Origin: Sinomonas sp. P10A9
GTDB taxonomy: Bacteria > Actinomycetota > Actinomycetes > Actinomycetales > Micrococcaceae
DNA length: 64,000 nucleotides
Assembly (NCBI RefSeq): GCF_041022165.1
Contig: NZ_CP163302.1
Coordinates: forward strand, 3,038,001-3,102,000
Direction: 5' to 3'
Positions 43,657 through 54,879 of the stretch are shown here, piece after piece; position 1 is the stretch's first letter; every line of letters starts with the position of its first letter. Below the pieces are notes generated by a model. That model searched no databases. It saw nothing but the letters and a program-made list of their open reading frames with translations, and was not told the origin of the DNA. Both the position numbers and the translations under genes were made by a program.

Positions 43657-44796
43657 ATGACTTCTTCGGTAGGCTTCGTCGGCTGGCGCGGCATGGTCGG
43701 CTCTGTCCTCATGGAGCGCATGCAGGACGAGGGCGATTTCGCCTCGATTGACCCGGTGTTCTTCTCGACGTCCAATGCGGGCGGCGCGGCGCCGTCCTTC
43801 ACGGGTTCTGCCGCCGGCGACGCCGGTGCCCTCCAGGACGCGTACGATATCGAGGCGCTGAAGAAGCTTCCGATCATTGTGACCGCTCAGGGCGGGGACT
43901 ACACCAAGCAGGTCCACCCGACGCTGCGCGCCGCGGGGTGGGACGGCCTGTGGATCGACGCGGCGTCGACGCTGCGCATGAACGAGGATTCGATCATCGT
44001 CCTCGACCCGGTGAACCGGACGGTCATCGACGAGGGCCTCGCGTCCGGCGTGAAGGACTTCATCGGCGGCAACTGCACCGTCTCGTGCATGCTCATGGGC
44101 CTCGGCGGGCTGTTCCGCAACAACCTCGTCGAGTGGGGCACATCGATGACGTACCAGGCCGCCTCCGGCGGCGGCGCGCGCCACATGCGCGAGCTCCTCA
44201 CGCAGTTCGGCACGCTCAACGGCGCCGTGGCCGCGGAACTGTCCGACCCGGCGTCGGCCATCCTCGAGATCGACCGCAAGGTCCTCGCTGCCCAGCGCGG
44301 CGGCGTCGATGCGACGCAGTTCGGCGTGCCGCTCGCGGGTTCGCTCATTCCGTGGATCGATGCGGACCTCGGCAACGGCAAGTCCAAGGAGGAGTGGAAG
44401 GCCGGGGTCGAGACCAACAAGATCCTCGGCACCGCGGCCGGAGCCACGATTGAGCCCGTGATCATGGACGGGCTCTGCGTGCGCATCGGCGCCATGCGAT
44501 CCCACTCCCAGGCGCTCACGCTCAAGCTACGCGAGGACCTGTCCGTCGCCGAGATCGAGAGGCTCATCGATGCCGACAACGAGTGGGCGCACGTAGTCCC
44601 CAACGAGAAGCAGGCCTCGATGGACCAGCTGACCCCCGTCGCGGCATCGGGCACGCTCGACATCCCCGTTGGCCGGGTCCGCAAGCTCGAGATGGGGCCG
44701 GAATACATCTCCGCCTTCACGGTGGGCGACCAGCTCCTCTGGGGCGCGGCCGAGCCGCTGCGCCGCATGCTCAAGATCGCCACCGGGACGCTCTGA
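43657..44796 (+). CDS. asd: aspartate-semialdehyde dehydrogenase (gamma-proteobacterial type)
   Basis: 379-residue Asd, reducing aspartyl phosphate to aspartate semialdehyde for lysine, diaminopimelate, threonine and methionine. Catalytic Cys140 is in GGNCTVSCM. The whole chain follows the enteric enzyme: [58 protein letters not shown] and [17 protein letters not shown]. It differs from the shorter Asd usual in actinobacteria, hinting at ancient transfer or an alternative Asd class. The lysC gene is not adjacent. Confidence 0.95.
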
Positions 44797-44940: not shown

Positions 44941-45046
44941 AGCCGCTTCTCCGTCGGTGAGCCGCTTCTCCCTGTGGGAGTCGCTTCTCCTTGTCGGAGC
45001 CGCTTGTCCTTGTCTGGTTGCACAAGGAGAAGCGGCTCACGCAAGG
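44941..45046. repeat. 19-bp array beside the DUF559 gene (downstream side)
   Basis: Four direct 19-base units of AGCCGCTTCTCCNTGNNGG type (44941-45016) and then an inverted copy CACAAGGAGAAGCGGCTCAC (45021-45040). The inverted copy pairs with 44957-44976 to form a hairpin. It lies in the 313-base gap between asd and the DUF559 gene, with the asd terminator. The same unit family recurs on the other side of the gene at 46161-46236. Confidence 0.88.
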
Positions 45047-45109
45047 CCACCCAGGGCAGGCAAGCTGACAGTTCTAAGAGCTCGATCTCCTGAGACCTTA
45101 CTGTCCTGT

Positions 45110-46069
45110 CTAGGCCGACCGACGTACCGCCCGGGCCAGAGCCGACTCGATACGGCGGCGGACTTCCTCGGGCTTCTCAAGGTCCGACCACCGGAGCCGG
45201 ACAAACGTCCACCCCTGCTCCATGAGCAGCGTCTCCCGGCGTCGTTCGGCAAGCAGAACCGAAGCCGTGGGCTCGTAGTCCATGTACTTGCCCTCGCCGT
45301 CGAACTCGATGATGATTTTCAGTTCGACCCAGGCGAAGTCGGCACGATACACACCCTCTGCGGTGATGAGCTCCAGTTGGATCACCGGATCGGCGAACCC
45401 GAGCCTCCGCAGGAGCGCGCGCGTCCTCGACTCGCCCGGCGATTCCGTTCGGCCCTCGAGGGCATGGAGGACGGCCAGAGCACGCCGACGTCCACGATCC
45501 GGCGCCTCCATCATGGCGTCTCGAATGACCTTTGCCGATGCCAACCCATGGTGGAGGGCGCTGTCTCCGATCACGAGTGCTTGTTCGTGAGGCAGGAATC
45601 GGAAGCAGTCAACAAGGGTGCGGACAACCGTAGTGACCGTAATCAGGCGTCCATTCCGCTCGACTTTCGCGACGTCGGTGTCCGAAAGTCCGAGTTCGTG
45701 ACTCAGGGTGTCAGTACCGCGACTGGAGCGTGCGCCCGAGTAGCCAGTCGCCACGTGGACGGCGGATCCGGCGTTCCAGACCGAGCATCCATGAAGGATC
45801 GCGGCACTGGCTAGGCAATATACGCTCGATCCGCCGGTCCCGGCGATATGTCCATCGATCCGGGCAGCGTCCTGCTCCCACGGCTTGAGCGCGCTCCATC
45901 GGTGGGCAGGGATGTAGGCGCCCCGACGCAGCCGGATGATCGCGCCGGACTTCACTCCCTCGGTAAGGAGGCGATCGGAGATCCCCGCCTCCCGCAGCGA
46001 TGTCGTCGACGCTACGTCCATGCGCGGCCATCGGGGTCCTAGGAGGCCCTCGGCGGTATGTCTGTCCAT
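45110..46069 (-). CDS. AbiEi-type HTH / DUF559 (Vsr-like) nuclease
   Basis: 319 residues. The N-terminal part (about 20-80) resembles the AbiEi antitoxin HTH domain (LREAGISDRLLTEGVKSG, RLRRGAYIP). The C-terminal part (about 210-310) is DUF559, a Vsr/PD-(D/E)XK-like nuclease: ESRTRALLRRLG, then DFAWVELKIIIEFDG with the catalytic Asp/Glu/Lys pattern, and RETLLMEQGWTFVRLRW. Its lower GC and repeat-flanked position suggest an acquired gene. The start is ATG 46069; ATG at residue 17 is an alternative. No toxin gene is adjacent, so a TA pair is not supported. Real role unknown. Confidence 0.82.
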   Translation of the reverse strand: MDRHTAEGLLGPRWPRMDVASTTSLREAGISDRLLTEGVKSGAIIRLRRGAYIPAHRWSALKPWEQDAARIDGHIAGTGGSSVYCLASAAILHGCSVWNAGSAVHVATGYSGARSSRGTDTLSHELGLSDTDVAKVERNGRLITVTTVVRTLVDCFRFLPHEQALVIGDSALHHGLASAKVIRDAMMEAPDRGRRRALAVLHALEGRTESPGESRTRALLRRLGFADPVIQLELITAEGVYRADFAWVELKIIIEFDGEGKYMDYEPTASVLLAERRRETLLMEQGWTFVRLRWSDLEKPEEVRRRIESALARAVRRSA

Positions 46070-46160
46070 TCCGTCATCGTTTCGAGGATGCCGCGGCAGT
46101 GCTACGGGGAGTCGACGTATGTGGACAACTCAGCGTCAGTCGCCGATCCGAGTCTGCGTC

Positions 46161-46236
46161 ACCTTGCGTCAGGCGCTCGACCTTGCGTCCGCCGCTTCTG
46201 CTTGCGTGCCCAAGCAAGGAGAAGCGCTTAAGGCAA
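46161..46236. repeat. short array beside the DUF559 gene (upstream side)
   Basis: Units ACCTTGCGTCAGGCGCTCG and ACCTTGCGTCCGCCGCTTCTG are followed by the inverted form CAAGGAGAAGCGCTT. The shared core CCGCTTCT / AGAAGCG and CTTGCG link it to the array at 44941-45046 on the other side of the gene. It fills most of the 237-base gap 46070-46306. Confidence 0.8.
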
Positions 46237-46306
46237 GGAGACGAGAGGCAAGCACTACCGCGTCGACGCAGGGCTGCTCCTGCGTGCTGTCCCGAGCGCC
46301 CCGCGC

Positions 46307-47431
46307 CTATCCCGCCCAGTAGGCCTCGATCCGCCTGACTGCCTTGGCCACGCCGGCCGAGGCGGCGGGCCCCAGTTCCTCGAACAGGTCGAGGTCCACT
46401 CGGGGTGCTGCGGGCGTACCGCCCTTCGTCCACGTGCCGACAGCCCGGCCGCCCACGGTCACCATCGACTTGAAGATGCCGTTGAGCCCCGGGACGATGC
46501 GCTCGAGATAGGGGTCGGGGATCGCCACGGAGCGGTCCGGGTACCCGATCGCCAGCTCATCGAAGCCCGGCAGCACCGCCGCAGCCCGTGCGCCAGCGCG
46601 CGAGTCAGCGAGCGCCGCCACGCCGGGGGCACAGAACAGGGTGCGTTCCCCGAACATGACCTCGGCGGACCCCGCTGCGGCCGCCGCGAACGGGCCCCGT
46701 ACCCGCCCGACAGGCTGGCCGAGCCACCACGCGAAGTCCCGTTCGTCCACCGGCCCGTGGGAGGCGATGTACCGGCCGGCGAGGTGCTCGAGCGCGTCGT
46801 CGCCCGCGAGGCCCTCCGCCGCCGGGAGCCACTCGTCCGCGAGACGGAACTCCTGCTGCCTCCCGCGCAGCGGACCCTGCACGAGGACGAGTCGGTGGCT
46901 CAGGATCGAGATGAGGTGGATCCCGCGCTGGGCCGACGCAGGCTGCCCGGCCGCCTCGAACGCCTCGAACAGCTCGGCGCGTGTCAGGCCGCCCCCACCG
47001 GCGAGCCGATCCTCGGCGACCTTCCGAACCACCGCGACGTCCTCCTCGGTGATGCCCAGGTCCCGGTGGCGCGACGACGCCGAGCGCATGACGCGTTCCG
47101 ATGCGAGCCCCACCAGCGTTCGGACGTCCGAAGCGGCGACTGTGAACAGGGTGCCCCGCATGGTCCAGGTCCGCACGATCCCCCCACCGGCGAGGGCCTC
47201 CACCACCGCGGCCTCCGAGCACCCCCGCGTCCGCACCGCGACCTGGAGCAGCCCGGCCGGAAGGTTCTGGCTCTGGAGCGCCGTCATGCGGCGCACCGCA
47301 GCGACGGGGTCGGCCGCGAGCCCAAGCGCCTCACCCACCGAGGCGACCGGAAGCAGACCCTGCGCGACGAGCCTGAGGCGGGCCAGCGCCGTCGTGCGCA
47401 GCTGGCGCCCGGCCGGGTCGGAAAGTCCCAT
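46307..47431 (-). CDS. AlkZ-like (HTH_42) DNA glycosylase-family protein
   Basis: 374 residues of the winged-helix DNA-binding HTH_42 family (YcaQ/AlkX and Streptomyces AlkZ), which unhooks DNA crosslinks or bulky alkylation. The catalytic-type Q-x-Q motif is present as ALQSQNLPAG (Gln53 and Gln55), as in AlkZ rather than the QxD of YcaQ. The remaining domain pattern includes RTWTMRGTLF, RGIHLISILSHRLVLVQG and ERIVPGLNGIFKS. The start is ATG 47431 (MGLSDPAG); a longer opening to 47497 lacks support. Its substrate is unknown; it lies beside the DUF559 gene. Confidence 0.82.
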   Translation of the reverse strand: MGLSDPAGRQLRTTALARLRLVAQGLLPVASVGEALGLAADPVAAVRRMTALQSQNLPAGLLQVAVRTRGCSEAAVVEALAGGGIVRTWTMRGTLFTVAASDVRTLVGLASERVMRSASSRHRDLGITEEDVAVVRKVAEDRLAGGGGLTRAELFEAFEAAGQPASAQRGIHLISILSHRLVLVQGPLRGRQQEFRLADEWLPAAEGLAGDDALEHLAGRYIASHGPVDERDFAWWLGQPVGRVRGPFAAAAAGSAEVMFGERTLFCAPGVAALADSRAGARAAAVLPGFDELAIGYPDRSVAIPDPYLERIVPGLNGIFKSMVTVGGRAVGTWTKGGTPAAPRVDLDLFEELGPAASAGVAKAVRRIEAYWAG

Positions 47432-47483
47432 GGCCCCATCATGGCCCGATATGAGGACAGTGGACGTCCGCAGCCGTCCGGAA

Positions 47484-47555
47484 CTTCTGCGAGTCACCTT
47501 CCGGGAGTCACCTTCTGTGGGTCACCTCAGGTGACTTGCAGAAGGTGACCCCCAG
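47484..47555. repeat. intergenic array, GTCACCTT-type unit
   Basis: Direct units GAGTCACCTTCCGG, GAGTCACCTTCTGTGG and GTCACCTC are followed by the inverted GGTGACTTGCAGAAGG and GGTGACC. The arms CTTCTGCGAGTCACC (47484-47498) and GGTGACTTGCAGAAG (47530-47544) pair at 14 of 15 positions. It shares a 17-mer with 21873-21889 and lies between a thiolase stop and the upstream side of the AlkZ-like gene. Confidence 0.88.
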
Positions 47556-54737: not shown

Positions 54738-54865
54738 GTTGTGGGGTCTCTGGCGGCGCCTTGTGGGGTCTCTGGCGGCGCCTTGTGGGGTCCCAAGGGG
54801 CGCCAGAGACCCCACAACGGGTCGCCAGAGACCCCACAACTCACGGCCAGAGACCCCTCAACGGG
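54738..54865. repeat. 22-bp direct and inverted array upstream of murB
   Basis: Two and a half direct units of TTGTGGGGTCTCTGGCGGCGCC (from 54738) are followed by three inverted units (GGCGCCAGAGACCCCACAA and two variants) up to 54865, so the whole gap between the MFS gene and murB can fold on itself. It may end the MFS transcript, but the direct copies suggest repeat proliferation. Confidence 0.92.
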
Positions 54866-54879
54866 CGGTGGCGGCGGGG

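Follow-up and report, generated by a model that had tools for sequence, protein, structure and literature searches.

A lone AbiEi-Vsr-type nuclease gene between matched inverted repeats suggests a nuclease-repeat partnership in Sinomonas

Why should a nuclease-like gene without a recognisable partner lie between two related arrays of short hairpin-forming repeats? This question is raised by a locus in a 64,000-nt stretch of Sinomonas sp. P10A9 (contig NZ_CP163302.1, positions 3,038,001 to 3,102,000; hereafter the window), where a 319-aa AbiEi-Vsr-type gene, assigned by profile matches, predicted structure and residue conservation, occupies 45110-46069 on the minus strand. We favour, with a probability of roughly 0.55, the reading that nuclease-repeat pairs are numerous and that this locus is an example, an AbiEi-Vsr-type protein evolving together with its private short repeats, inverted or tandem. 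Such pairs would resemble the repetitive extragenic palindromic sequences (REPs) and their REP-associated tyrosine transposases (RAYTs), with an unrelated enzyme. Because the window gene and many of its relatives sit between private repeats of their own, our analysis suggests that short hairpin sequences in the chromosomes of bacteria may be maintained, and perhaps spread, by a nuclease, in a partnership so far unrecognised.

A single 38-bp inverted doublet recurs, in imperfect copies, on both flanks of the window gene. The left array (44941-45046) comprises four GCCGCTTCTCC-type units at a 19-nt period, starting at 44942, 44961, 44980 and 44999, and one inverted unit at 45023-45036, and contains a doublet at 44999-45036 that resembles REPINs (REP doublets forming hairpins) and has the arms GCCGCTTGTCCTTG and CAAGGAGAAGCGGC. 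The right array (46161-46246) includes CTTGCG units and a less perfect doublet of the same length and geometry at 46191-46228, in which 46191-46204 meets its inverted partner 46215-46228 with 2 mismatches. Both doublets have 14-nt arms with a 24-nt start offset, and neither was equalled in folding stability by any of 200 shuffles (z -6.7 left, z -3.7 right); folding of the whole arrays gave z -4.9 on the left (0/200 shuffles) and z -2.4 on the right (6/200). Block 44981-45046 shows 74% complementarity to block 46181-46246, and the left flank aligned to the reverse-complemented right flank with a score of 49, which was reached by none of 110 mismatched paralogue pairings and none of 42 window open reading frames (ORFs). 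The claim of an earlier note on this DNA that related repeats border the gene on both sides was thereby borne out; that the core of the repeat is a short inverted doublet goes beyond that note.

The same arrangement recurs across the genus. Each of 15 Sinomonas genomes (15/15) contains 9-16 matches to the AbiEi-Vsr family, 189 in total, some of which are pieces of one gene; 146 loci were examined, the rest being split in pieces or outside the matches listed. In 103 of the 146 loci the best left-versus-right flank alignment scored above the 99th percentile set by 1344 mismatched left/right pairings within genomes, and a flank score of 50 separated 79/146 loci from 1/1344 mismatched pairings. 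A smaller first set of 84 loci in 8 genomes included 59 with matched flanks. Control genes exceeded the threshold in 4 of 72 cases: SDR controls (30 among 284 SDR matches in seven genomes) did so twice, as did the 42 window ORFs, whose flanks were defined slightly differently (scores 42 and 41). In the genome of the window (G000), 6 of 11 loci passed the test, and a seventh, L069, has a 15-nt sequence common to both flanks as seen by eye. The earlier expectation that related genes would have matching repeats at their borders therefore stands for 103 loci.

Repeat type also follows protein subfamily. Among 98 loci with scores above 40, repeat similarity between genomes climbs with protein identity, and it does so with non-syntenic outer flanks as well. 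When a tree of 145 proteins is divided at a single depth, 18 clusters have more than one member, and many of these show a recognisable motif; across the 146 flank pairs, TTGYGGGGTCYCTGGC is restricted to four genes forming one clade (support 0.995) and CATCGACTGCTCC to three genes forming another (support 1.0). Coupling between gene and repeat across the family is strongly supported. Of 149 genomes in the order, 143 contain the family itself. In other genera, 22 of 29 loci (the matches listed) scored above the 99th percentile set by 812 cross pairings, and two loci on Tsukamurella plasmids had flank scores of 44 and 111.

Copies of the repeats are present away from the genes. With at most 1 mismatch, CATCGACTGCTCCGTAA occurs in 14 copies in G006, 11 in G007 and 19 in G012, and in 0-1 copies in the other 12 genomes; the three rich genomes carry the cognate gene clade and are non-sisters in the tree of asd, the semialdehyde dehydrogenase gene next to the window gene. 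TTGYGGGGTCYCTGGC copies number 78 in G000, 72 in G011 (the same species), 32 in G001, 26 in G004 and 22 in G005, with 0-6 in the other ten genomes; in G001, only a sister gene with a related repeat was seen. The off-gene copies of both high-copy families thus lie mainly in genomes holding the cognate clade, as the RAYT analogy predicts. Plus/minus pairs of CATCGACTGCTCCGTAA less than 500 bp apart were all (11/11) at a 45-nt offset. The window family yielded 19 such pairs, ten at a 24-nt offset and the others at 43, 62, 80, 99 and 159 nt; the ten comprise the left doublet of the window gene, another next to the orthologue in G001, and eight off-site doublets spread over G000, G001, G009, G011 and G012. 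One off-site array of this family lies between predicted ORFs at 3324493-3324665 in G000. Dispersed inverted doublets are clear for CATCGACTGCTCCGTAA, take the form of arrays for TTGYGGGGTCYCTGGC and amount to eight off-site cases for the window family, whose single matches are not in excess. In G000, 16 of 19 TTGYGGGGTCYCTGGC-family arrays lie between predicted genes and 6 of 19 between convergent ones. Dispersed TTGTGGGG arrays common to G000 and G011 are of unequal length, and in several the difference is one unit of 22 bp.

Hairpins in intergenic positions would also be expected if the repeats were transcription terminators or mRNA-stabilising elements beside short genes that stand alone, without any particular link to the protein. 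The folding results and the 16 intergenic arrays fit this explanation; nevertheless, matched flanks were rare in control genes, the single T-run hairpin found near the window gene lies within that gene, and repeat type tracks protein identity in non-syntenic loci. We regard it as very improbable.

The protein combines an AbiEi-like part (about aa 5-205), with a winged helix-turn-helix (wHTH) and a nucleotidyltransferase-like fold, and a Vsr/EDxHD-type nuclease domain (about aa 208-316) seen in the predicted structure. The AbiEi_4 HTH passes the Pfam cut-off and PADLOC AbiEi models match the N-terminal part, which places the protein with the AbiEi-type wHTH antitoxins of AbiE type IV toxin-antitoxin systems. 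The DUF559 profile reached 20.5 bits (cut-off 20.6) and the MTES_1575 profile 20.7 bits (cut-off 38.2); although both scores are sub-threshold, the predicted structure has the Vsr-like fold, so the HTH and nuclease domain named in the earlier note were both recovered. In the genus paralogues (n=145 aligned), E213 (145/145), D244 (144/145) and R278 (145/145) are nearly invariant, while E255 is kept in 112/145 and K261 in 73/145 (a gap in 72); catalytic roles of these residues are putative, and invariance of the active-site residues was limited to closer homologues. Loci L071, L113, L136 and L142 and their relatives lack E255, mostly with Q in its place, and many of them have strongly matched flanks.

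The AbiEi-like part invites another explanation, in which the protein is a sequence-specific regulator: repeats at the gene would be autoregulatory operators, those elsewhere would form a regulon or help to organise the chromosome, the nuclease-like part would be structural or secondary, and the repeats would have spread through ordinary mutation and recombination. Characterised AbiEi is described in PMC3985639 as a wHTH autorepressor binding 23-bp inverted repeats in its own promoter; the repeat units here measure 19-22 nt, and subfamilies that differ at one active-site position retain flank matching. Operators do not readily explain why 103 of 146 loci have repeats on the downstream side in addition to the upstream one, or why 6 of 19 dispersed arrays sit between convergent predicted genes, which are poor operator sites, and the constant spacing (11/11 pairs in one family; 24 nt in 10/19 window-family pairs) resembles the copying of a unit. 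This explanation is unlikely in our judgement, yet it is the most serious of the alternatives to a nuclease-repeat pair.

The gene stands between asd (43657-44796, plus strand) on the left and a convergent AlkZ-like gene (46307-47497, minus strand) on the right. Its GC content of 64.8% is lower than that of asd (67.9%), the AlkZ-like gene (73.2%) and the window (69.6%), and no AbiEii nucleotidyltransferase toxin gene adjoins it, the search covering the neighbours of the window gene; both points agree with the earlier note. That note had also proposed a search for empty sites in relatives, and the asd/AlkZ-like site is indeed empty in 3 of 15 genomes, with a stop-to-stop distance of about 11 bp in G007, 32 bp in G008 and 24 bp in G013; these empty sites are in diverged species. 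An insertion sequence would be marked by terminal inverted repeats and a target-site duplication: inverted doublets stand on both sides of the gene, and the species with empty sites are too diverged for a duplication to be read. In G010, G003 and G012 the gene is replaced by one of another subfamily (the L064 cluster), G004 has a C-terminal remnant, and the eight remaining genomes carry a member of the window gene's cluster. Between G000 and G011, asd is 98% identical and the asd-site gene 66% identical, with other repeats. Divergence begins right after the asd stop codon and agreement resumes 13 bp before the AlkZ-like stop, and nine other best-matching paralogue pairs are 90-100% identical; L072 had no counterpart among ten G011 loci.

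Such turnover would be expected of a defence or selfish gene swapped as a cassette, with the flanking repeats serving only as recombination or insertion sites and the dispersed copies being scars of past cassettes. The two subfamilies, three empty sites and one remnant at the asd site, the contrast between its diverged gene and the nine conserved pairs, and the PADLOC matches are all in keeping with this proposal. Scars alone do not readily account for repeats that number 22-78 per genome and form tandem and inverted arrays, however, nor do they easily explain why repeat type tracks protein subfamily, and we consider the proposal improbable.

Among known systems, REPs and REPINs with their RAYTs (TnpA-REP), together termed REPtrons, are the closest in layout: as described in PMC3116915, PMC3733652 and PMC8266576, palindromic repeats flank the enzyme gene, inverted doublets are dispersed, and repeats and enzyme co-evolve. 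In 103 of 146 loci, as at the window gene, short palindromic repeats border the gene; the repeats of the family co-evolve with their enzyme, and further dispersed copies are clear for CATCGACTGCTCCGTAA, as inverted doublets, and for TTGYGGGGTCYCTGGC, as arrays. RAYTs are HUH tyrosine transposases, whereas the protein here is predicted to combine an AbiEi-like part with a nuclease fold of the Vsr/EDxHD type, with 9-16 family matches per genome, many having tandem arrays. The RAYT-type transposase domain Y1_Tnp (PF01797) was not found in any of the 15 genomes at E 0.001, with positive controls detected, and the pair is not a REP-RAYT member because this defining enzyme was not found. The N-terminal part resembles AbiEi of AbiE type IV systems by profile and fold, but the window gene lacks an adjoining AbiEii and has an extra nuclease-fold domain and private repeats on both sides. 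Unlike EDxHD homing endonucleases (I-Bth0305I) and Vsr, no intron, intein or phage context was seen here, the DNA-binding part is AbiEi-like and the protein is tied to repeats; empty sites, such as a homing endonuclease would cut and be copied into, do occur. Some homologues are named DUF559, MTES_1575 or 'very-short-patch-repair endonuclease' after Pfam families weakly matched here; such names imply no repeats. Among the matches listed in a search of open-access papers (excluding preprints), none links DUF559 or AbiEi-nuclease genes to repeats and none gives a tested function for the AbiEi-Vsr family; the passages of PMC12306157 consulted do not mention RAYT, nuclease or AbiE.

To our knowledge, REP/RAYT is the sole known enzyme-repeat partnership with such a layout. 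Under the nuclease-repeat reading, the AbiEi-like part would bind the 19-22-nt unit, as may be expected because AbiEi binds 23-bp inverted repeats (PMC3985639). The nuclease part would cut at or beside the unit, and repair would copy or rearrange the repeats and sometimes replace or remove the gene cassette between them. Cutting and movement by the protein are inferred from its predicted fold and from the copy-number pattern. A bolder version, which we put forward tentatively and rate slightly below even odds, is that AbiEi-guided Vsr-type nucleases recognise their private REPIN-like hairpins, cut them and propagate them, as an independent second class of enzyme-maintained repeats. Such a class would be widespread in Micrococcales, perhaps elsewhere as well, with around ten pairs of mutual specificity in one chromosome that turn over as cassettes. 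If so, a non-homologous enzyme would fill the REP/RAYT role, and the strategy would have evolved more than once; a large family now labelled antitoxin or repair endonuclease would gain a function; and several natural protein-target pairs per genome would be available for specificity studies.

Several results weigh against the nuclease-repeat reading. The flank test was failed by 43 of 146 loci, including 5/11 in G000 and 5/7 in G013, and the G011 asd-site gene has unmatched flanks (score 27). The REP-like layout proposed in the earlier note is supported by the matched borders, by the link between repeat and subfamily and by the empty or replaced sites. The refuting conditions set in that note gave a mixed outcome: some paralogues have unmatched flanks, and repeats do occur far from the genes, mainly where the cognate clade is present for the two high-copy families. 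For the repeat of the window gene this was not seen, its pattern giving 15 matches in G000 against 16 for the reversed control, with no excess. Doublets with the 24-nt offset occur in G009, G011 and G012 despite an asd-site gene with another repeat or subfamily, which speaks against strict coupling of gene and repeat. The presence/absence comparisons are based on 3 and on 4-5 genomes, and in the comparison of G000 with G011 no whole dispersed array was seen to have been gained or lost within the species. E255 is replaced by Q, H or another residue in 33/145 paralogues, with H in the genes that accompany the TTGTGGGG family of 78 copies; given this variation and that at K261, intact catalysis is not certain for all paralogues. 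Flank-test passes were equally frequent with D244, E255 and K261 present (51/72) or not (52/73).

Some further observations concern individual loci. One in-frame stop lies within the matched region in nine paralogues (L099, L092, L094, L167, L110, L241, L090, L251 and L261); these, some with flanks still matched, are probably decaying copies. A separate Vsr-like gene without the AbiEi part in G000 (L002, 1201-1710) has unmatched flanks (score 20). Among the SDR controls, L216 has a strong direct flank match (score 55) that appears by eye to reflect related coding ends.

The window contains two further repeat families of this type, neither mentioned in the earlier note, as off-site arrays. A 21-nt, GGTGACCTCGGCACCACACCC-type array at 30204-30349 matches the repeat beside paralogue G000:C1:2463740, and one of the two above-threshold window ORFs adjoins it. 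An array of the 22-nt TTGTGGGGTCTCTGGC family at 54739-54866 (hairpin z -9.7) matches the repeat beside paralogue G000:C1:2056151; with 115 matches at no more than 2 mismatches, against 10 for the reversed control, this family has the highest copy number among the repeats counted in G000.
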